From Caproicibacterium lactatifermentans (GTDB lineage Bacteria > Bacillota > Clostridia > Oscillospirales > Acutalibacteraceae): a DNA stretch of 64,000 bases. This document shows positions 11,510 through 45,250 of the stretch, piece by piece. Location of the stretch: positions 310,001 to 374,000 of the forward strand of contig NZ_CP046051.1 in NCBI RefSeq assembly GCF_013315815.1, read 5' to 3'. A program made the translations under genes and the position numbers. The notes below the pieces were generated by a model that saw only the letters and a program-made list of their open reading frames with translations, searched no databases and was not told where the DNA came from. Position 1 is the first letter of the stretch, and every line of letters begins with the position of its first letter.

Positions 11510-11796
11510 AAATCAATCATTGACAAGGCAATGACGGGAATAAGGCACAGGCAGGCTGCTGCAGAGAGCCGGCGGGCGGTGTAAGCCGGTACAGATGCGT
11601 GTGCGTATAGCTCATCCCTGAGCCGCCATCCCCGAACTTCTTTCAAAGTAGGGGCGGACGCTGCGGCAGCGTTATCTGCCGGGGCCTTCTCCATTTTGGA
11701 CGAGGCCGCAGAGGGCCTCTTTAAGGCTGAAGCTGGGTGGTACCACGGCGTAACTTTCGTCCCAGACACGGTGTATTTCCGTGTCTGGGACTTTTT
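11510..11796 (+). ncRNA. T-box leader with leucine specifier
   Basis: This leader fills the 373-base gap before leuA. It contains the T-box sequence CTGGGTGGTACCACGG (about 11733-11748), which pairs with an uncharged tRNA acceptor end, and a specifier-loop candidate CTC followed by A at 11611-11613. CTC is a leucine codon and the operon makes leucine. The terminator follows at 11759. Known T-box logic predicts readthrough when uncharged leucyl tRNA accumulates. The specifier is assigned by eye from its place on the 3' side of stem I and should be checked by folding. Confidence 0.9.
11759..11796 (+). terminator. Regulated terminator of the T-box
   Basis: Perfect 13-base stem GTCCCAGACACGG / CCGTGTCTGGGAC, followed by five T. 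It directly follows the T-box sequence, as expected for the terminator that competes with the antiterminator. Confidence 0.92.
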
Positions 11797-34664: not shown

Positions 34665-37600
34665 TTGAAAGGACAATTCAAAAAGCTGCTGTTCATTTTG
34701 GTGCTGGGTGCGGCAATTCAGACGGCTGTTTTTCCAGCCAGCGCGGCGGACAGCAGCTCGCAGAAGAGCGGCACAGTGTCGTCAGCGGCTTCTTCTGCAC
34801 TGACCACAGCATCTGCCACGGAGCAGCAAACGGCCAGTACCACCATTAAAAGTGACACAAACAGCGACTTTTCCGTTGAGCAGGGCAAAGAATACACGTT
34901 CCGGTTTGAAGTGGTCGGTCCGCAGGGCCTTACGCCGACCTTCACCATTTCAGGGAGTGCGTTCCAAAAGAGCGGCCAGACACAGGCAGTGGAAAACGGC
35001 CACGACGTGTACTACTACAAAATCAAAGCAGTGGGCAATGCCGGCGACACAGCCGATATTTACACACAGCTTCCGGGGCAGACCGCAGTCAAGCGCTGTA
35101 CGGTGACGGTGAAGGAAACCAGTGTTCCTGCCACTATTAAGAGTGACACAAACAGTGATTTCTCCATTGTGCAGGGCAAGGAATACACGTTCCGGTTTGA
35201 AGTGGTCGGTCCGCAGAGCATTACGCCGACCTTCACCATTTCGGGAAGTGCATTCCGAAAGAGCGGCCAGACACAGACAGTGGAAAACGGCCACGACGTG
35301 TACTACTACAAAATCAAAGCAGTAGGCTCGGCGGGACAGGCATCCGCTGTCTATACACAGCTTCCCGGGCAGACTGCGGTCAAGCGCTGTACGGTGACGG
35401 TGAAAGGAACCGCTTCCATTAAGAGTGACACAAACAGCGATTTTTCCGTTGAGCAGGGCAAAGAGTACACGTTCCGGTTTGAAGTGGTCGGTCCGCAGGG
35501 TCTTACGCCGACCTTCACCATTTCGGGGAGTGCATTCCAGAAGAGCGGCCAGACACAGACAGTGGAAAACGGCCACGACGTGTACTACTACAAAATCAAA
35601 GCAGTGGGTAATGCCGGCGACACAGCCGATATTTACACACAGCTTCCCGGGCAGACCGCGGTGAAGCGCTGCGCCGTGACAGTGCAGGGAGCCGCTTCCA
35701 TTAAGAGTGACACAAACAGCGATTTTTCCGTTGCGCAGGGCAAAGAGTACACGTTCCGGTTTGAAGTGGTCGGTCCGCAGGGTCTTACGCCGACCTTCAC
35801 CATTTCGGGGAGTGCATTCCAGAAGAGCGGCCAGACACAAAGGGTGGAAAACGGCCACGATGTGTACTACTACAAAATCAAAGCAGTAGGCTCGGCGGGA
35901 CAGACGTCCGCTGTCTATACACAGCTTCCCGGGCAGACTGCGGTGAAGCGCTGTACGGTGACGGTGCAGGGAGCCGCTTCCATTAAAAGCGACACAAACA
36001 GCGACTTTTCCGTTGCGCAGGGCAAGGAATACACGTTCCGGTTTGAAGTGGTCGGTCCGCAGGGCCTTACGCCGACCTTTACCATTTTGGGAAGTGCATT
36101 CCAGAAGAGCGGTCAGACACAGACAGTGGAAAACGGCCACGACGTGTACTACTACAAAATCAAAGCAGTAGGCTCGGCGGGACAGGCATCCGCTGTCTAT
36201 ACACAGCTTCCCGGGCAGACTGCGGTCAAGCGCTGTGCCGTGACGGTGAAGGAAACCAGTGTTCCTGCCACTATTAAGAGTGACACAAACAGTGATTTCT
36301 CCATTGCGCAGGGCAAGGAATACACGTTCCGGTTTGAAGTGGTCGGTCCGCAGGGCCTTACGCCGACCTTCACCATTTCGGGAAGTGCATTCCGAAAGAG
36401 CGGCCAGACACAGAGAGTGGAAAACGGCCACGACGTGTACTACTACAAAATCAAAGCAGTGGGTAATGCCGGCGACACAGCCGATATTTACACACAGCTT
36501 CCCGGGCAGACCGCGGTGAAGCGCTGCGCCGTGACAGTGCAGGGAGCCGCTTCCATTAAGAGTGACACAAACAGCGATTTTTCCGTTGAGCAGGGCAAAG
36601 AGTACACGTTCCGGTTTGAAGTGGTCGGTCCGCAGGGTCTTACGCCGACCTTCACCATTTCGGGGAGTGCATTCCAGAAGAGCGGCCAGACACAGACAGT
36701 GGAAAATAATCACGATGTGTACTACTACAAAATCAAAGCAGTGGGCAATGCCGGCGACACAGCCGATATTTACACACAGCTTCCCGGGCAGACCGCGGTG
36801 AAGCGCTGCGCCGTGACAGTGCAGGGAGCCGCTTCCATTAAGAGTGACACAAACAGCGATTTTTCCGTTGAGCAGGGCAAAGAGTACACGTTCCGGTTTG
36901 AAGTGGTCGGTCCGCAGGGTCTTACGCCGACCTTCACCATTTCGGGGAGTGCATTCCAGAAGAGCGGCCAGACACAGACAGTGGAAAATAATCACGATGT
37001 GTACTACTACAAAATCAAAGCAGTGGGCAATGCCGGCGACACAGCCGATATTTACACACAGCTGCCGGGACAAAGTGCTGTGAAGAGCTGTACCGCTGTG
37101 GTAAAAATTACGACCACTACACCGATGAAAGGCATCGATGTCAGTGAGCACAACGGCTACGTAGACTGGGATACAGCCAAGGCTGCGGGTTTGCAGTTTG
37201 CTATGATTCGCTGCGGCTACGGCGGGGACATCGAAAGTCAGGACGACGCGCAGTTTGAGCGCAATGTTTCCGAGTGCGAGCGGCTGGGAATTCCGTGGGG
37301 CACTTACCTTTACAGCTACGCCTTGACAACCGACAACGCCAAAAGTGAGCTTGCCCATGTGCTGCGCCTGCTGGAAGGTAAACATCCGCAGTTCCCAGTC
37401 TTTATCGACATGGAGGATGCGGACGACTATAAGGCAAAACGTGGTATGCCGGACAGCGAAACATTGACGGAAATCATGAAGATTTTCTGCTCAGGTGTGA
37501 AAGATGCCGGCTATCTGGCAGGTTATTACGTCAATTTGGACTGGTACAAGAATTACATCAATCCGGAGGAACTTTCGGATTATCTGTTCTGGTACGCACG

Positions 37601-37757
37601 TCCGGGCCTGGATGAGCCGGACAAGACCTGCAGCATTTGGCAGAGTGAGTTCCCCGGAACCGGCGGCAGCTGGGACGGCGCGAACATCAGCAGCGGCGGG
37701 TGTGACATGGATGTATCTTATGTGGACTTTACCACATGGAAACAGGACAATACATAA
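34665..37757 (+). CDS. Secreted GH25 lysozyme with eight tandem repeats
   Basis: A 1030-residue exported protein. Residues 1-28 are a signal peptide (FKKLLFILVLGAAIQTAVFPASA). A short Ser/Thr-rich linker leads to eight copies of a 94-97 residue beta-rich repeat (about 61-817) that opens IKSDTNSDFS and contains GKEYTFRFEVVGPQ. The last 210 residues are a glycoside hydrolase family 25 muramidase with the catalytic Asp825 in KGIDVSEHNG and acidic residues in FIDMEDADD (about 914-920), ending DVSYVDFTTW. The repeats may bind cell wall or glycan, though this is inference. There is no sortase signal. The TTG at 34665 lies 13 bases after AAGGAG. An out-of-frame ATG at 34652 is too close to that site. 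Confidence 0.92.
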   Translation: MKGQFKKLLFILVLGAAIQTAVFPASAADSSSQKSGTVSSAASSALTTASATEQQTASTTIKSDTNSDFSVEQGKEYTFRFEVVGPQGLTPTFTISGSAFQKSGQTQAVENGHDVYYYKIKAVGNAGDTADIYTQLPGQTAVKRCTVTVKETSVPATIKSDTNSDFSIVQGKEYTFRFEVVGPQSITPTFTISGSAFRKSGQTQTVENGHDVYYYKIKAVGSAGQASAVYTQLPGQTAVKRCTVTVKGTASIKSDTNSDFSVEQGKEYTFRFEVVGPQGLTPTFTISGSAFQKSGQTQTVENGHDVYYYKIKAVGNAGDTADIYTQLPGQTAVKRCAVTVQGAASIKSDTNSDFSVAQGKEYTFRFEVVGPQGLTPTFTISGSAFQKSGQTQRVENGHDVYYYKIKAVGSAGQTSAVYTQLPGQTAVKRCTVTVQGAASIKSDTNSDFSVAQGKEYTFRFEVVGPQGLTPTFTILGSAFQKSGQTQTVENGHDVYYYKIKAVGSAGQASAVYTQLPGQTAVKRCAVTVKETSVPATIKSDTNSDFSIAQGKEYTFRFEVVGPQGLTPTFTISGSAFRKSGQTQRVENGHDVYYYKIKAVGNAGDTADIYTQLPGQTAVKRCAVTVQGAASIKSDTNSDFSVEQGKEYTFRFEVVGPQGLTPTFTISGSAFQKSGQTQTVENNHDVYYYKIKAVGNAGDTADIYTQLPGQTAVKRCAVTVQGAASIKSDTNSDFSVEQGKEYTFRFEVVGPQGLTPTFTISGSAFQKSGQTQTVENNHDVYYYKIKAVGNAGDTADIYTQLPGQSAVKSCTAVVKITTTTPMKGIDVSEHNGYVDWDTAKAAGLQFAMIRCGYGGDIESQDDAQFERNVSECERLGIPWGTYLYSYALTTDNAKSELAHVLRLLEGKHPQFPVFIDMEDADDYKAKRGMPDSETLTEIMKIFCSGVKDAGYLAGYYVNLDWYKNYINPEELSDYLFWYARPGLDEPDKTCSIWQSEFPGTGGSWDGANISSGGCDMDVSYVDFTTWKQDNT
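34845..37118 (+). repeat. Eight tandem 282/291-base coding repeats
   Basis: Units begin (ATT of IKSDTNSD) at 34845, 35136, 35418, 35700, 35982, 36273, 36555 and 36837. Units 1 and 5 are 291 bases because they end in ETSVPAT instead of GAAS. The rest are 282. Units 7 and 8 are identical over roughly their first 230 bases, and variants (NAGDTADIY or GSAGQASAVY; GHD or NHD) are shuffled between units. This pattern points to recent duplication and recombination between copies. Confidence 0.95.
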
Positions 37758-38522: not shown

Positions 38523-39644
38523 TTATTCCGTGTGTACTTCGCAGTAGTTACCAAGAAAATGGAAACGCGGCAGTTCCTCCTGCAGAGAGCACAGAAGTTC
38601 CAGCACGGCGGGGTCACGCACATTTCCGGTAAAATCCAAATAAAAATCATACTCGAAGTCTTTGCCCGCAATGGGCCGGGATTCAATTTTTGTCAGGTTC
38701 ATTCCTGCGGCGGCAAAGCGGGACAGTACAGCGTTCAGGCTGCCGGTGGTGTGGGCCACATTAAAGCAGAGACTGATTTTTTCCGCATTGTCCGGAATGC
38801 ACAGCTGCCGGCTAATGACAGCAAAGCGGGTGGCATTGTTGTCGGTGTTCTGCAGGTCACGTTCAAGTATGTGCAGACCGTACTTGTGGGCGGCGCTTTC
38901 GCTGCAGACAGCGGCAATGGAAGCATCTTCCGCGGCGGCCTTGGCGGCGGCGCTGGTACTGCTGACTGGCTGCAGCGGCAGGTGCAGGGCAGAAAGCCGC
39001 CGGGAACACTGCTGCAGGGCAATTTTTTTGGACTGAATGCAGCGGACAGATGCGGGGCTGCTTTCCTTTGCGGCAAGGCACTGATGTACCCGAATGGTCT
39101 TTGCCGCAACAATATAAAAGCGGCACTGCATCAGCAGGCTGTACACGTCACTGACACTGCCCGCACTGGAATTTTCCATAGGGACAACCGCCAGACCTGC
39201 ATTGCCCTGTTCCACACAGCGAAAAATATCATCAAACCGGTTGTAGAACTGGACCTGTGCCCGCGGGTACAGGGATGACACGACACTGTGGCTGTAGGAG
39301 CCCGGCCCGCCTAAACAGGCAACACTTTCGGGAAAGGCGGGTACCTTTGGGGCGGCGGCAATGGTCTTCCGCAGGGTGCCGCCGGAACCCAGCAGCCGGT
39401 GCTGCAGGGCACTGCTTTCACTCATAATGGTACGGTACACAATGCGTGCCGCACCACTGTAGAGGCCGGCCTTTGCGGAAATGCGGTCCAGAATTTCCTC
39501 TTCCCGTGCGGCGTTGTGCACCGGAATGCCATCCCGCTTTTTAGCTTCGGCCATTTTTTTGGCACAGTCCATGCGCTGAACAAACAGCGGCAGCAACTGG
39601 CTGTCAATCGTATCTATTTCACGGCGGATATCCTTTAAATCCAT
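38523..39644 (-). CDS. pheA: Bifunctional chorismate mutase/prephenate dehydratase (P-protein)
   Basis: PheA turns chorismate into prephenate and then phenylpyruvate, the Phe branch. The 373-residue protein has an AroQ chorismate mutase domain (MDLKDIRREIDTIDSQLLPL, about 1-85), a prephenate dehydratase domain (CLGGPGSYSHSV near 110, DNNATRFAVISRQ near 270), and a C-terminal ACT domain with ESRP near 318 that normally binds Phe for feedback. It is the last gene of the aro operon, eight bases after aroC, under the Phe-rich leader at 45044-45151. Confidence 0.96.
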   Translation of the reverse strand: MDLKDIRREIDTIDSQLLPLFVQRMDCAKKMAEAKKRDGIPVHNAAREEEILDRISAKAGLYSGAARIVYRTIMSESSALQHRLLGSGGTLRKTIAAAPKVPAFPESVACLGGPGSYSHSVVSSLYPRAQVQFYNRFDDIFRCVEQGNAGLAVVPMENSSAGSVSDVYSLLMQCRFYIVAAKTIRVHQCLAAKESSPASVRCIQSKKIALQQCSRRLSALHLPLQPVSSTSAAAKAAAEDASIAAVCSESAAHKYGLHILERDLQNTDNNATRFAVISRQLCIPDNAEKISLCFNVAHTTGSLNAVLSRFAAAGMNLTKIESRPIAGKDFEYDFYLDFTGNVRDPAVLELLCSLQEELPRFHFLGNYCEVHTE

Positions 39645-39652
39645 TTTATCGT

Positions 39653-40747
39653 TCAGTCCTTTGCAATATGCTCTAAAATACCATCTATATTGAGAAGCGC
39701 CAGCGCAACAGCAGCCTCCACCGCAGGAACCGCGCGCGGCACAATACAGGGGTCGTGCCGCCCGTGTACGGACAGCAGAGTGTCCTTACCGGTCGCAAGG
39801 TTCACACTGTGCTGCTCCCGCACAATGGAGGGAGTAGGCTTAAAGGCCGCACGGAACAAAATGGGCATTCCCGTGGTAATGCCGCCTAAAATGCCGCCGG
39901 CATTGTTGGTGCGGGTTTTTACGGTGCCGTCCGCGTCGTAGAAGAACGCATCGTTGTTTTCGCTGCCATGCAGGGCAGCCGCCTCGAAGCCCGCGCCGAA
40001 CTCCACACCTTTGCAGGCGGGAATGCCGAACAGAATCGAGGAAAACAGGCTTTCTATGCCGCCGAACATTCCCTCGCCGCCAAGGCCCGCGGGTACACCC
40101 AAACAGGCGCATTCTACCACGCCGCCGACACTGTCGCCCGCCGCGTGTGCCGTGTCAATCTCGCAGTACATAGCATCCTTTTTCTGCGGGTCCAGCACTG
40201 GAAAATTGGCGGAGCCGCAGGCTTTCAGTATGGGAGCGGTGATATTGGAAAACGGCGTGTCGTGTACTTGCCCGATAGACCAGACGTGCGCGCCGACCAG
40301 AATGCCACGCCGTGCGAGAATTTGGCGGCATACGGCACCCGCAAATACCAGCGGAGCGGTCAGCCGGCCGGAAAAGTGCCCGCCGCCGCGCACATCATTG
40401 CAGCCGTGGTACTTTACCCACGCGGTGTAATCGGCGTGGCCGGGGCGTGGTACCTCCAGCAGATTTTGATAATCGGCGGAACGTGTGTTGGTATTTGCAA
40501 TGACAGCGCACAGGGGCGCGCCGGTTGTCACACCGTTGAGAAGTCCGGAAAGCACCTGCGGAATGTCTGCCTCCCGCCGCGGTGTGCTGGTTCGGTCCCG
40601 GCCCGGTGCCCGTCGGTGCATTTGCTGCTGTACTGCGTCCATATCCACTGCTTCGCCTGCGGGAAGGCCCTCCAGCACACAGCCAATGGCCGGTCCATGG
40701 CTTTCACCGAAAATACTGATTTTTACCCGTTCACCCCACGATGACAT
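39653..40747 (-). CDS. aroC: Chorismate synthase
   Basis: AroC forms chorismate from 5-enolpyruvylshikimate 3-phosphate with reduced FMN as cofactor. The 364-residue protein begins SSWGERVKISIFGESHGPAI, the first family signature. It has the second, GRLTAPLVFAGAVCRQIL, and RTNNAGGILGGITTGMPI near 300. The ATG at 40747 follows GGAGGAAACGCAG and overlaps the aroA stop by 17 bases. Longer frames upstream lie inside aroA. As an oxygen-sensitive flavin enzyme it fits an anaerobe. Confidence 0.96.
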   Translation of the reverse strand: MSSWGERVKISIFGESHGPAIGCVLEGLPAGEAVDMDAVQQQMHRRAPGRDRTSTPRREADIPQVLSGLLNGVTTGAPLCAVIANTNTRSADYQNLLEVPRPGHADYTAWVKYHGCNDVRGGGHFSGRLTAPLVFAGAVCRQILARRGILVGAHVWSIGQVHDTPFSNITAPILKACGSANFPVLDPQKKDAMYCEIDTAHAAGDSVGGVVECACLGVPAGLGGEGMFGGIESLFSSILFGIPACKGVEFGAGFEAAALHGSENNDAFFYDADGTVKTRTNNAGGILGGITTGMPILFRAAFKPTPSIVREQHSVNLATGKDTLLSVHGRHDPCIVPRAVPAVEAAVALALLNIDGILEHIAKD

Positions 40748-41999
40748 CTGCGTTTCCTCCCATCTCCTGATAAACCGTAAAAAATTCCGGCCAGCTTTTT
40801 TGTACTGCCTGTGCGTCAGTAATCGTAACAGGCCCCTGTGTACGCAGGGCGGCAACAGCGGCGGCCATGACAATGCGGTGGTCGCTGCAGCCATCCACGG
40901 TGCCGCCGGGCAACGGCCGGCCCCCCCACAAGGTAAGGGTGTCCTCCATTTGTTCTGCCCGCGCACCCAGTGAAACCGCCATGTGGTACAGGGCGTCCAG
41001 CCGGTCGCTTTCTTTTAGCCGCAGGCGGGCGGCGTTGTACAGACGGGTGCGCCCTTCGGCGAACAGTCCGGCTGCGGCCAGCACCGGTGCAAGGTCCGGT
41101 ATTTGCCCCACGTCGATATCAAAGCCCGTTAAGTGATTTGCTTCGGCGGTGAGAATACCGTTTTTCCAGCGCAGGGAAGCGCCGAATTGTGTCAGCAGCG
41201 GCACGATCGCGCGGTCGCCCTGTGCGGAGCTTGGGTCCAGACCGGTGAGCGATACCTGCCCGCCCAGCGCACCGGCTGTCAGCAGGAATGCCGCTTGGCT
41301 CCAGTCCCGTTCAATGGAAAGTGTGCGGGCACGGAAATGCTGTCCGCCGGGGACCTTCCAGCCGCCTTGGTACGGCAGAACAGAAATGCCGAATTGCTGG
41401 AGCATGTGGCACGTCATGCGGACATAGGAAGCGCTTTGCAGCGGTGAGGTCAGTTGTATCTCGCTGTCACCGGAAAGCAGCGGCAGCGCAAACAAAAGTC
41501 CCGAAATAAATTGACTGGAAACATCGCCCGGCAGACAATACACGCCTGCCTGCAGCTGTCCGGAGATGCGCAGCGGCAGACCGCCGGTACTTTCACAGCA
41601 CAGACCCTGCTGCGGCAGCAGAGAAAGGTAGATGCCCAGAGGGCGCTGCGGCAGCCGCCCACAGCCGGTGAAAACAGCTGGTACGCCCAGTGCGCCGACA
41701 GCCGGTATCAAAAAACGCAGGGTAGAGCCGCTTTCCAGACAGTTGAGCGTGACCGGCGCTTTCGGCGAACCGGAAATGCCTGTTACGGTCAGGGTGTCAC
41801 CCTGCAGCACTGCCTGTGCACCAAGCGCACGAATACAGCCGATGGTTGCCTGCATATCCGCGCTGGTGCCGATGGGCGAGAGAACACTTTTTCCCGGGGC
41901 GAGCGCAGCGCACAAAATGGCCCGATGGGCCGCACTTTTGCTGGGCGGCGGTGACACCGTTCCCCGCAGTGCACCGGGAAAAAGCCGCACGCGGCTCAC
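40731..41999 (-). CDS. aroA: 3-phosphoshikimate 1-carboxyvinyltransferase (EPSP synthase)
   Basis: AroA adds enolpyruvate from PEP to shikimate 3-phosphate. The 422-residue protein has the N-terminal SPPPSKSAAHRAILCAAL, the ESGSTLRFLIP motif near 85, and RLKESDRLDAL near 330. The GTG at 41999 overlaps the aroB stop (GTGA) and has GGGA in front. A GTG at 42014 is the alternative. At the glyphosate-relevant loop it reads SGSTLRFLIPAVGALG, where class I enzymes usually have LGNAGTAMRPL. This is the form seen in many Firmicutes. Confidence 0.95.
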   Translation of the reverse strand: MSRVRLFPGALRGTVSPPPSKSAAHRAILCAALAPGKSVLSPIGTSADMQATIGCIRALGAQAVLQGDTLTVTGISGSPKAPVTLNCLESGSTLRFLIPAVGALGVPAVFTGCGRLPQRPLGIYLSLLPQQGLCCESTGGLPLRISGQLQAGVYCLPGDVSSQFISGLLFALPLLSGDSEIQLTSPLQSASYVRMTCHMLQQFGISVLPYQGGWKVPGGQHFRARTLSIERDWSQAAFLLTAGALGGQVSLTGLDPSSAQGDRAIVPLLTQFGASLRWKNGILTAEANHLTGFDIDVGQIPDLAPVLAAAGLFAEGRTRLYNAARLRLKESDRLDALYHMAVSLGARAEQMEDTLTLWGGRPLPGGTVDGCSDHRIVMAAAVAALRTQGPVTITDAQAVQKSWPEFFTVYQEMGGNADVIVG

Positions 42000-43051
42000 T
42001 GCATTTCCCGGCACAGCCGGGGCAGGTCCGCACGCGGTACCTTCTGTATACAGCAGTGGCCGATATCTTTCAGCAGTATCAGTTTCACACTGTTTCCAGT
42101 GGATTTCTTATCATGCGCGGTTGCGGAAATGAGGTCCTGCATGGATTCGGTACAGACAGACGGCAGGCCGTACCGGTGCAGCAGGGCCGCAATGCGGTTT
42201 GCTGTGCCAGGGGCGGTCATGCCGTTCTGTTCACTCATGCGGGTAATCAGAACCATGCCGACACCCACAGCGGCACCATGCGTCAGGCCATGATAATTCT
42301 GCAGCGTTTCCAGTGCATGGCCAAATGTATGACCAAAGTTCAAAATGGCCCGCTCACCAGTGTCACGCTCATCTTTTTCCACGACCTGCCGCTTGATGTC
42401 CACACAGGCGGCGATAACCTCCGGCAGGTATTTTCGGCAGTCCTCTGTTTCCAGTCGCTCAAACAGTGCGCGGCTGCGGATACAGCCGTACTTAATGACT
42501 TCCCCCATGCCATCAGAGAAGAAAGCAGTTGGCAGGGAGGAAAGCGTGTGCGGGTCAATGAGGACCAGAGAGGGCTGGTGGAAGGCACCCACTAGGTTTT
42601 TGCCTTCCGGCAAGTCTACGCCGGTTTTGCCGCCGACGGACGAATCCACCTGTGCCAACAGACTGGTGGGAATTTGGATGAACGGAATGCCGCGCAGCCA
42701 TGTAGCCGCCGCAAAGCCGGTCATATCGCCGCACACACCGCCGCCCAGTGCCACGGCGAAATCACTGCGGGTAAGGTTCGATTGGGAGAACGCCGCGTAC
42801 AGGCGGGAAATGGTGGATAGATTTTTGCTTTGTTCACCGGCGGGAAAAGTCACCAAAGAGGCGAGAATGCCCGCCGTCTGCAGAGAGCGCAGAACGGTGT
42901 CAGCGTAAAGGGGCGCCGTATGGGTATCGGCCACCACCACACAGCGTTTCGCCGCGGGCAGCAGTGTTGTGGCGTACGGCCCAATCTGCCGGATACAGTT
43001 ATTTTCTATGAGAATGTCATAGGATGGATTTGTATGTACAGTGATTGTCAT
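41996..43051 (-). CDS. aroB: 3-dehydroquinate synthase
   Basis: AroB closes DAHP to 3-dehydroquinate, using NAD catalytically and a divalent metal. The 351-residue protein has GEQSKNLSTI near 72, GGGVCGDMTGFAAATWLRG near 98 and the QVDSSVGGKTGVD motif near 138. The metal ligands are in the FGHTFGHALE stretch near 247. It overlaps tyrA by four bases (ATGA) and aroA by three or four, so translation of tyrA-aroB-aroA-aroC is probably coupled. Confidence 0.96.
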   Translation of the reverse strand: MTITVHTNPSYDILIENNCIRQIGPYATTLLPAAKRCVVVADTHTAPLYADTVLRSLQTAGILASLVTFPAGEQSKNLSTISRLYAAFSQSNLTRSDFAVALGGGVCGDMTGFAAATWLRGIPFIQIPTSLLAQVDSSVGGKTGVDLPEGKNLVGAFHQPSLVLIDPHTLSSLPTAFFSDGMGEVIKYGCIRSRALFERLETEDCRKYLPEVIAACVDIKRQVVEKDERDTGERAILNFGHTFGHALETLQNYHGLTHGAAVGVGMVLITRMSEQNGMTAPGTANRIAALLHRYGLPSVCTESMQDLISATAHDKKSTGNSVKLILLKDIGHCCIQKVPRADLPRLCREMQ

Positions 43052-43878
43052 TCTCCCAGTTCCTCCTTAATCAGACGGCCCCGCCGCAGAAGCGCTTCCA
43101 GTCGTTTTTGGTCGCCGTCAGCAACAGCGTCCCGAATGTCGGAAAGGTTCTTTATCAGGGTATTCAGTTCCCCAGTCAGAGCAGTTTGGTTATCCAAAAA
43201 CAGCTCCGCCCACATGACTTCATTGATGTTTGCCACACGGGAAACGTCACGATAGCTTCCAGCGGAAAAGCCGCGGTGTTCCGGGCAGCACGGGCTCATC
43301 ACATAGGCGCAGGCCAGTGCGTGCGGAAGCTGGCTGGTAAAGGCAATCAACTGGTCGTGATGTTCCGGTGTGGTGGAGACACTGCGCCCAAAACCAAGCT
43401 GAAACGCCGTTTGCCGCAGCAGCTCCTGCACCGGTTCCGGGGCGCTGCACGGCACCAAAATGTAACTGGCACCCTTAAACATATCCGCGCGCGAAGCGGA
43501 AAAGCCGTGCTTTTCTGTGCCAGCCATGGGGTGAGCACCGCAGTAGACAAAACCCCCCTCTTTTGCCAGTGCGCACAGTCCGTGGCACACCTTTGTTTTA
43601 ATGCCGCACACGTCCGTCAGAACCGTATGTTTCCCGAAGGCGGAAAGGTGTGCGCGCACAAAGTCAATGTCGGCCTGCGGGTACAGGCACAGATACACAA
43701 TGTCGGCCTGTCGAAGGTCATCGTTGTCACCCTCCTTTGTGATGGCACCGCAGGCAAGGGCGGCCTCCACCGTGGCGGGGTCGGAGTCGATGCCGGCAAC
43801 GTGACAGTCAGTGTATTTCGTAAAGGCTTTGGCAAGGCTGCCGCCTATCAGCCCCAGCCCGACAATGACAATATGCAA
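43048..43878 (-). CDS. tyrA: Prephenate dehydrogenase
   Basis: TyrA oxidises prephenate to 4-hydroxyphenylpyruvate, the Tyr branch. The 276-residue protein has the Rossmann motif VGLGLIGGSLAKAF at residues 6-19, the conserved GAHPMAGTEKHGF near 128, and the helical dimer domain at the C-terminus. There is no ACT domain, so direct Tyr feedback may be weaker than in longer TyrA proteins. It lies 32 bases after aroF. Confidence 0.95.
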   Translation of the reverse strand: MHIVIVGLGLIGGSLAKAFTKYTDCHVAGIDSDPATVEAALACGAITKEGDNDDLRQADIVYLCLYPQADIDFVRAHLSAFGKHTVLTDVCGIKTKVCHGLCALAKEGGFVYCGAHPMAGTEKHGFSASRADMFKGASYILVPCSAPEPVQELLRQTAFQLGFGRSVSTTPEHHDQLIAFTSQLPHALACAYVMSPCCPEHRGFSAGSYRDVSRVANINEVMWAELFLDNQTALTGELNTLIKNLSDIRDAVADGDQKRLEALLRRGRLIKEELGE

Positions 43879-43910: not shown

Positions 43911-44933
43911 TTATAATGTACGGCCAAACAGCGGCGCAGCCTTTTTGATGCGTGCGGCCACATGGTCGAACTGGTCCGGTGTCAGGGACTGTGCACCGTC
44001 TGAGAGGGCCTTCTTCGGGTTGTTGTGTACTTCAATGATAAGACCGTCCGCACCGGCAGCTACGGCCGCCATAGCCAGCGGTTCCACCAGCCAGGAAATG
44101 CCGCCCGCGTGGCTGGGGTCCACGACAACCGGCAGGTGCGTCAGACGCTTTAGAATCGGCACAGCCGAAATGTCTAGTGTGTTGCGGGTGTAGGTTTCAT
44201 AGGTACGAATGCCCCGCTCACAGAGAATGACATTTTGGTTGCCTCCAGCCAGAATGTACTCGGCAGCCATCAGCAGTTCCTCAATGGTAGCGGAAAGACC
44301 GCGCTTCAGCAGGATCGGGGTCTGCAGGTGGCCAAGTTCCCGCAGCAGGTCAAAGTTCTGCATATTGCGTGCGCCCACCTGTATAATATCCACGCCCGCC
44401 TTGAGGAACAGGTCAATCTGCCGTACACTCATCAGTTCGGTGACAATGGGAAGGCCTGTTTCAGCTTTCGCTTCCTGCAGCAGCTCCAGTCCATCTTCCT
44501 TTAGGCCCTGAAATGCGTAAGGACTGGTGCGCGGTTTGTACGCGCCGCCGCGCAGGAATTGGGCACCACCCTGCTTGACACGACGGGCAATCTCCGTAAT
44601 CTGCGGTTTGGATTCCACACTGCATGGACCGGCAATCAAGGCAAGCTGTTTTCCACCGATGGAAAGCCCGCCCGGCAGGTGAATAACGGTGTCATCCGGG
44701 TGAAATTTGCGGTTGGCCAGCTTGTACGGTTCCTGCACACGCTTGACGGAATCCACAATTTCGTTTGCACCGATGTTGTCAATATCAATCGCGGCGGTGT
44801 CCCCGATAAGGCCAAGCACGGTGCTTTGTGCGCCCACCCATGTATTGACGGATACACCGTAGGTTTCTTCTAGGTCCTTGATGAATTCCTCGCGCTGGCT
44901 GTCGGTGCAGCCGGGTTTTAAAACAATAATCAT
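43911..44933 (-). CDS. aroF: 3-deoxy-7-phosphoheptulonate (DAHP) synthase, type I beta
   Basis: The first step of the shikimate pathway joins PEP and erythrose 4-phosphate. The 340-residue protein has an N-terminal ferredoxin-like regulatory domain of about 70 residues (MIIVLKPGCTDSQREEFIKD). The barrel follows, with AGPCSVES near 115, FLRGGAYKPRTSPYAFQGL near 140 and DPSHAGG near 285. The extra N-terminal domain is the form regulated by Tyr or Phe in Thermotoga and other bacteria. The ATG at 44933 follows AGGAGGCGTGTTGAAA. It is the first large gene behind the Phe-rich leader. Confidence 0.96.
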   Translation of the reverse strand: MIIVLKPGCTDSQREEFIKDLEETYGVSVNTWVGAQSTVLGLIGDTAAIDIDNIGANEIVDSVKRVQEPYKLANRKFHPDDTVIHLPGGLSIGGKQLALIAGPCSVESKPQITEIARRVKQGGAQFLRGGAYKPRTSPYAFQGLKEDGLELLQEAKAETGLPIVTELMSVRQIDLFLKAGVDIIQVGARNMQNFDLLRELGHLQTPILLKRGLSATIEELLMAAEYILAGGNQNVILCERGIRTYETYTRNTLDISAVPILKRLTHLPVVVDPSHAGGISWLVEPLAMAAVAAGADGLIIEVHNNPKKALSDGAQSLTPDQFDHVAARIKKAAPLFGRTL

Positions 44934-44974: not shown

Positions 44975-45007
44975 AAAAAAAGACGGAGCTGCTTGCCAAC
45001 TCCGTCT
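44975..45007 (-). terminator. Attenuator terminator of the aro operon
   Basis: On the minus strand AGACGGAG pairs with CTCCGTCT around an 11-base loop, followed by at least six T. It lies 42 bases before the aroF start and 36 bases after the leader peptide stop, so it acts within the leader rather than at a gene end. Confidence 0.88.
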
Positions 45008-45043
45008 GAAGCCTGATAGGGATCGGTCCCTTTTTGAAAAATT

Positions 45044-45151
45044 TTAAAGGGAAAGCTTCTTCCAGAAATCTGCGCGCAGCAAAGTTTCCCGGGCAAAGAA
45101 ATGACCGGAAAAAGAAAAGCTGCTAAATCGATGTGCGCAGAAAACAGACAT
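45044..45151 (-). CDS. Phe-rich leader peptide of the aro operon (35 residues)
   Basis: A 35-codon frame between the aro promoter and the attenuator terminator. Its ATG (45151) is eight bases from a perfect AAAGGAG. The peptide begins MSVFCAHRF and has seven Phe (positions 4, 9, 12, 14, 18, 19, 29) and a Trp at 30, one residue in five being Phe. The codons for Phe29-Trp30-Lys-Lys (45055-45067) can pair with 45005-45012, which overlaps the 5' arm of the terminator. Ribosome stalling at the earlier Phe codons would therefore favour readthrough. This is inferred from sequence only. Confidence 0.8.
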   Translation of the reverse strand: MSVFCAHRFSSFSFSGHFFARETLLRADFWKKLSL

Positions 45152-45220
45152 TGCGAAAGCTCCTTTATGTATTGCGAAGTAAAAATATACGAAGCGGTTT
45201 GCATACGGCGGGCTTTTTTA

Positions 45221-45250
45221 ACTATAATACAGCGGACGTGGATTTGTCAA
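45221..45250 (-). promoter_or_regulatory. Promoter of the aro operon leader
   Basis: On the minus strand perfect TTGACA (45250-45245), an 18-base spacer and TATAGT (45226-45221). It lies 30 bases after the aroE-aroK stop, so the aroF operon has its own start even though aroE-aroK is upstream on the same strand. Confidence 0.8.

Follow-up and report, generated by a model that had tools for sequence, protein, structure and literature searches.

A probable ribosome-mediated attenuator with Phe- and Tyr-rich leader peptides upstream of aroF in Caproicibacterium lactatifermentans and other Clostridia

The closest described counterparts of the leader considered here are the enterobacterial pheA, pheST and trp attenuators, in which a leader frame with cognate codons, a hairpin around these codons, an antiterminator and a terminator precede a biosynthetic operon. 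Amino acid control in Firmicutes is usually attributed to T-boxes and TRAP. The accessible part of a 2010 survey states that, until the His case it added, amino-acid leader peptides were known only from Proteobacteria and Actinobacteria (PMC2965389). The His leader peptides predicted in Firmicutes, as far as the available portions of the two reports describe them, resemble the leader analysed here in that leader-peptide attenuation is predicted where T-boxes serve the same kind of gene, but differ in carrying histidine codons, in preceding hisS and his operon genes and in being confined to a few lineages each (PMC2965389, PMC9413887). At aroF itself, uORFC-13-1 has been proposed as a Phe-coding uORF with promoter, ribosome binding site and terminator directly before the gene in Acholeplasma; in the accessible part of that study it comprises Acholeplasma and unassigned environmental sequences, with 24 representatives and at least one Phe codon, and by this description it is set apart from the Clostridia leaders, which occur in 33 families and have 6-17 Phe and Tyr codons (PMC8632094). 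In addition, a start-site map of Clostridium phytofermentans includes a trp T-box, with an aromatic leader not found in the parts consulted (PMC5171806), and the available text of a further study places a riboswitch candidate upstream of the Enterococcus faecium aroFBC-tyrA operon (PMC4448216). A literature search, with most subscription papers outside its scope, recognised no report of aroF leader peptides in Clostridia. Here, we describe such a leader in Caproicibacterium lactatifermentans, which differs from the enterobacterial systems in preceding aroF and a chorismate-to-Phe/Tyr operon and whose relatives in Clostridia mostly mix Phe and Tyr codons.

The window, a 64-kb stretch of a 1.99-Mb single-contig genome, contains on its minus strand the genes aroF (DAHP synthase, 43911..44933), tyrA (prephenate dehydrogenase, 43048..43878), aroB (3-dehydroquinate synthase, 41996..43051), aroA (EPSP synthase, 40731..42014), aroC (chorismate synthase, 39653..40747) and pheA (chorismate mutase/prephenate dehydratase, 38523..39644), with aroF as the first gene proposed to be controlled. 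The start of aroC is placed at 40747, at an ATG after GGAGG, because the longer frame 39653-40966 matches the family only from residue 82-83 onwards. An aroE-aroK fusion precedes the leader. The leader transcript would start from a promoter reading TTGACA-18-TATAGT (45221..45250, minus strand, as are all leader elements), a motif that alone is not beyond chance (1 found versus 0.7 expected in region shuffles). It is followed by the Shine-Dalgarno sequence AAAGGAG (45160..45166) and an ATG frame of 35 codons (45151-45044), which also has homologues and encodes MSVFCAHRFSSFSFSGHFFARETLLRADFWKKLSL, with seven Phe (positions 4, 9, 12, 14, 18, 19 and 29), one Trp (position 30) and no Tyr. Downstream of the frame, an intrinsic terminator (44975..45007), composed of a stem of 11 pairs (45007-44981) and a T run, TTTTTTATAG, lies before aroF, as it also does in relatives. 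Of the ATG frames of 10-60 codons in the window, three combine a Shine-Dalgarno sequence with a terminator within 120 nt, and the leader has the highest Phe and Tyr share of these (0.20, versus 0.08 and 0.04). A preliminary description, made from the letters of this window, had located the promoter, the AAAGGAG, the 35-codon frame with its Phe and Trp positions and the terminator exactly here, and the aroF-tyrA-aroB-aroA-aroC-pheA operon that it had named is recovered with NCBIfam, the pheA and tyrA matches being below the curated cut-offs of those models.

For the comparison, a strict leader was defined as a frame of 12-60 codons with a Shine-Dalgarno sequence, at least six Phe and Tyr codons and a Phe and Tyr share of at least 17%. 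A search of 60 relatives matched aroF in 43, and in the genus relatives a homologous leader, with HRF[ST] or [TA]RFTGF, is located upstream of the gene. The preliminary description would have been undermined by orthologous leaders in which the short Phe-rich frame or the ribosome binding site for it is absent; nine of the ten genus regions contain a strict leader, and the leader of the tenth (G005), although homologous and preceded by a Shine-Dalgarno sequence, has three Phe codons only. A promoter matching 11 of 12 bases, with a spacer of 17-18 nt, is retained upstream of the nine genus leaders scored and of the leader in G035, which belongs to another genus of the family. Scanning named genomes with a pattern yielded nine stretches, five of them chance-like and four of them leaders (L040, L041, L045 and L047), which come from an Oscillospiraceae MAG (UW_MP_ACUT4_1), two uncultured Clostridia and Ruminococcaceae UBA1405; aroF lies behind those leader matches whose downstream sequence was read.

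The leaders extend far beyond the genus. In the class sample, aroF was matched in 105 of 137 genomes, with places taken by aroF-score ranking and not by leader; aroF places near contig ends, short partial matches and lower-ranked places of this search and of that in the relatives were left out, as were L074, L091 and L092, in which the aroF start was unrecognised by the pattern. Together with those from the search in relatives, this gave 114 upstream regions, namely 106 main regions (99 genomes, 45 families) and eight second-copy regions (approximately 52% identity; seven from the genus and one from G035), which were counted apart. Strict leaders precede aroF in 66 of the 106 regions (66 genomes and 33 of the 45 families, all in class Clostridia), that is, in 9/10 at genus, 9/15 at family, 10/18 at order and 38/63 at class level. 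In comparison, dinucleotide shuffles gave a mean of 1.35 and a maximum of 3 over 20 rounds and the reverse strand gave 1. At least 11 of the 40 regions that fail the test have a frame that narrowly misses it. A promoter of at least 10 of 12 bases is found upstream of 53 of the 66 leaders, compared with 8 of 66 after mononucleotide shuffling. Annotation of such leaders is scarce, as a protein search with the leader of one relative returned one unnamed cluster.

Codon usage was examined in 55 frames picked by start, Shine-Dalgarno sequence and terminator only. These frames contain 326 Phe codons versus 234.5 in dinucleotide shuffles (z 10.9) and 206 Tyr codons versus 72.5 (z 17.8), with no excess of Trp (16 versus 25.3); because related sequences are not independent, these and the other shuffle and permutation figures overstate significance. 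The 66 strict leaders have 6-17 Phe and Tyr codons each, 52 of them with at least three of both, eight with at most one Tyr and none with fewer than two Phe. Phe and Tyr codons are mixed neighbours more often than by chance (193 versus 159, z 4.0). The window leader belongs to the Phe-only minority, so that the emphasis of the preliminary description on Phe holds for the window itself, whereas the leaders of its relatives, in a range wider than it had claimed, are rich in Phe and Tyr. A further stretch, G[YF][FYL]..C, recurs in 11 of the 66 leader peptides (L067, L087, L131 and others), compared with 1.2 in residue shuffles (maximum 6 in 500 rounds); common descent, RNA pairing or the peptide itself may lie behind it.

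The Phe codons 9-19 of the window leader are held in a hairpin (45070..45140) formed by stem P0 (45140-45135 with 45075-45070) and stem P1, which has an outer (45123-45119 with 45080-45076) and an inner part (45112-45105 with 45092-45085). None of 200 shuffles of 45140-45070 is as stable (fold z -4.22) and, across the 66 leaders, frames fold better than their codon-shuffled versions (mean z -2.14). RNAalifold on a MAFFT alignment of 17 leaders gave no pairs and a swap test was used instead. In these 17 leaders P1 (z -5.96) and P0 (z -4.48) co-vary between species, compared with a control at z -0.44, and both also do so in the nine leaders from the genus and G035 (P1 z -3.38, P0 z -3.62). Between P0 and P1 lies the sequence CGATTTA (45124..45130), read in frame as CGA-TTT-A; its lack of variation left it without a defined value when it served as a control in the swap test. 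In the RNA, all 11 leaders recovered by way of aroF (ten genus species and G035) share CGAUUUA without a change, and the claim of invariance is limited to these since 6 of the 17 leaders were found by the motif itself. CGA is rare, making up 4.5% of the Arg codons in eight window genes. A search of 300 family genomes with the motif pattern matched 14 (G000 included), of which L052, L053 and L054 have neither leader context nor aroF behind the match. The invariance of the motif in the genus is not explained by Phe counting. One possible though rather unlikely reading is that it is a second sensing or timing part of the genus attenuator, in which CGAUUUA, flanked by the two stems and placing a rare Arg codon directly ahead of Phe, would act as a programmed pause or a binding site that sets the switch, thereby joining RNA structure and codon reading.

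In the window, the last leader codons are predicted by folding to form the 5' side of an antiterminator (45053..45067), the 3' side of which (45000..45014) overlaps the 5' arm of the terminator: 45067-45063 and 45059-45053 would pair with 45004-45000 and 45014-45008, respectively, with a small hairpin in between. The evidence for such a pairing comes from the class. A first duplex test, with the terminator arm without its loop and the whole frame as partner, gave a mean z of -0.19 in 55 leaders. Because an alignment of one genus revealed a role of the terminator loop in the pairing, the second version included this loop and allowed as partner only sequence downstream of the median Phe/Tyr codon. 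With segments redefined in this way after seeing the data, the duplex has a mean z of -1.48 in 56 leaders, compared with 0.003 for a reversed-arm control. In a swap test, which uses the same segments, the leaders pair better with their own arm and loop than with foreign ones (-14.5 versus -11.1 kcal/mol; z -9.8, p<=5e-5), so that swapping arms between species costs approximately 3.4 kcal/mol on average; the native pairing beats the median swapped one in 52 of the 56 leaders, and a control segment, the first half of the leader, is null (z -0.46). The midpoint of the partner falls between -30 and +25 nt of the stop-codon end in 48 of the 56 leaders, where a terminating ribosome would sit. By eye, in one genus (ten species) and two relatives, AAAGCCCG pairs with YGGGCUUU in the one case and CCUUUGAGCCUG with CRGGUUCARAGG in the other. 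Together, these comparisons point to a class-wide antiterminator that would be exclusive with the terminator.

For the window itself, the antiterminator is the weakest link of the attenuator reading. The pairing of 45067-45055 with 45012-45005 put forward in the preliminary description is predicted by folding within the larger structure described above, but the antiterminator alone is no more stable than shuffles (z 0.20), and the window's own predicted antiterminator, taken alone, is weakly supported. The window duplex has a z of -0.54 and, as its best version uses the nucleotides 54 to 32 before the stop-codon end, a ribosome at the stop would leave it uncovered. When arms are swapped, the window leader scores -14.3 with its own arm versus -11.8 with the median foreign arm, but by a different pairing that lies further upstream. 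Eight of the nine genus leaders in this test do better with their own arm than with the median foreign one, and one (G008) does worse (-9.9 versus -14.3). In two-state folding, the arm is paired upstream more in the stalled state, by more than 0.2, in 41 of 56 leaders, with the reverse in none, and in the window and its nearest relative (G007) the shift is slightly the wrong way (0.49 stalled versus 0.59 at the stop, and 0.67 versus 0.79). As more RNA is free to pair in the stalled state in any case, this analysis was not counted as evidence.

T-boxes (RF00230) have 12 matches in the genome, five of them over the cut-off, and none is located at aroF; a T-box at the window leader was rejected as it gives no RF00230 match. 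Of eight T-box loci at which the downstream gene was read, three precede genes named by NCBIfam, trpB, tyrS and pheS (the last a 231-residue piece with 210.6 bits, below the cut-off of 237.45), and five precede genes resembling, by eye, valS, ilvB, cysE, alaS and leuA. Among relatives, 36 of the 40 regions with no leader or a sub-threshold one were scanned, together with the leader-bearing L117 and three second copies, and a T-box lies directly upstream of aroF in five of the 36 (L025, L030, L072, L084 and L090), compared with none of 20 leader-bearing loci scanned. In contrast to these T-boxes, the anatomy of the window leader points to sensing through translation.

On this anatomy of leader, cognate codons, hairpin and terminator, the window leader is assigned to the ribosome-mediated attenuator class and, judged from sequence, is very probably a transcription attenuator of the pheA/trp type that switches the operon on when Phe is short. 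In the proposed model, the 35-codon frame would be translated by a ribosome as RNA polymerase transcribes the leader. A shortage of charged tRNA-Phe would stall this ribosome in the Phe cluster (codons 9-19), within the P0/P1 hairpin, leaving 45067-45053 free to pair with 45014-45000 and to occupy part of the terminator 5' arm; with the terminator blocked, transcription would continue into aroF-tyrA-aroB-aroA-aroC-pheA. With ample Phe, the ribosome would proceed to the stop and cover the last codons, allowing the terminator (45007-44981) to form. Relatives have the same plan with mostly mixed Phe and Tyr codons, and a shortage of either amino acid would be expected to open the operon. The Phe-responsive attenuator of the preliminary description gains support from class-wide leaders and from species-specific complementarity in 56 of them, which make it broader than claimed; its restriction to Phe does not carry over to most relatives, in which the codons are Phe plus Tyr.

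Other readings of the same elements were weighed against this attenuator. A single Phe-rich frame in one genome could occur by chance, with the terminator acting as a constitutive attenuator or answering another signal; the presence of strict leaders in 66 of the 106 regions, where shuffling gives 1.35 on average, and the Tyr excess at z 17.8 contradict this, and we give it next to no weight. The leader could also be a structured RNA element, a riboswitch or protein-binding leader in which the frame is secondary and P0/P1 with CGAUUUA form the sensor. Such an element would account for the co-variation of P0 and P1, the stability of the hairpin (z -4.22) and the 7-nt motif that is invariant in the genus. 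It sits less well with the Phe/Tyr coding, which is class-wide whereas the motif is limited to some genera (14 of 300 family genomes, 3 of these without leader context), and no Rfam family, Phe_leader and Trp_leader included, reaches gathering score at the window leader, so that we regard it as very improbable.

A third reading changes the signal. In ligand-dependent nascent-peptide arrest systems, such as TnaC, the peptide itself is involved, and here it would stall its own ribosome on free Phe or Tyr rather than on the lack of charged tRNA. The R-F-[S/T] kept in 11 of 11 leaders (genus and G035) and the G[YF][FYL]..C stretch, at 11 of 66 versus 1.2, are what such an arrest peptide might leave behind. 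Both are found in a minority of leaders only, the 66 peptides being otherwise alike, by eye, mainly in their Phe/Tyr content, and conservation in the genus is at the DNA level with the rare CGA fixed, which selection on the peptide would not need; we consider arrest improbable and retain attenuation through charged tRNA.

New here are the breadth of these leaders in Clostridia, the way they mix Phe and Tyr codons, their exchange with T-boxes at aroF and the invariant motif. aroF is the entry gene of aromatic amino acid synthesis, and it is preceded by a Phe/Tyr-rich leader in 33 of the 45 Clostridia families sampled, while pheS and tyrS keep T-boxes in the same genome and some relatives have a T-box at aroF instead. 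If the attenuator reading is true, gene control and tRNA sensing would be mis-assigned in many anaerobes, and leader and T-box could be observed replacing each other at one gene, aroF.

Second copies of aroF are without a strict leader in all eight regions, including those of L106, L108 and L109, and in these three genus genomes, the three that were scanned, a 5S rRNA gene is located at most 800 nt from the second copy. Elsewhere in the window, the only Rfam matches at gathering score are a ribosomal protein L10 leader (RF00557, 24848-24993) and an S10-Clostridia ribosomal protein leader (RF03136, 50259-50337); a T-box match at 11522-11767 (82.4 bits, below gathering score) precedes a gene that by eye is like 2-isopropylmalate synthase. 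Finally, a 1030-aa frame at 34665-37757 is composed of near-identical repeats (IKSDTNSDFS...) and its C-terminal part resembles, by eye, a lysozyme-type glycosyl hydrolase domain.
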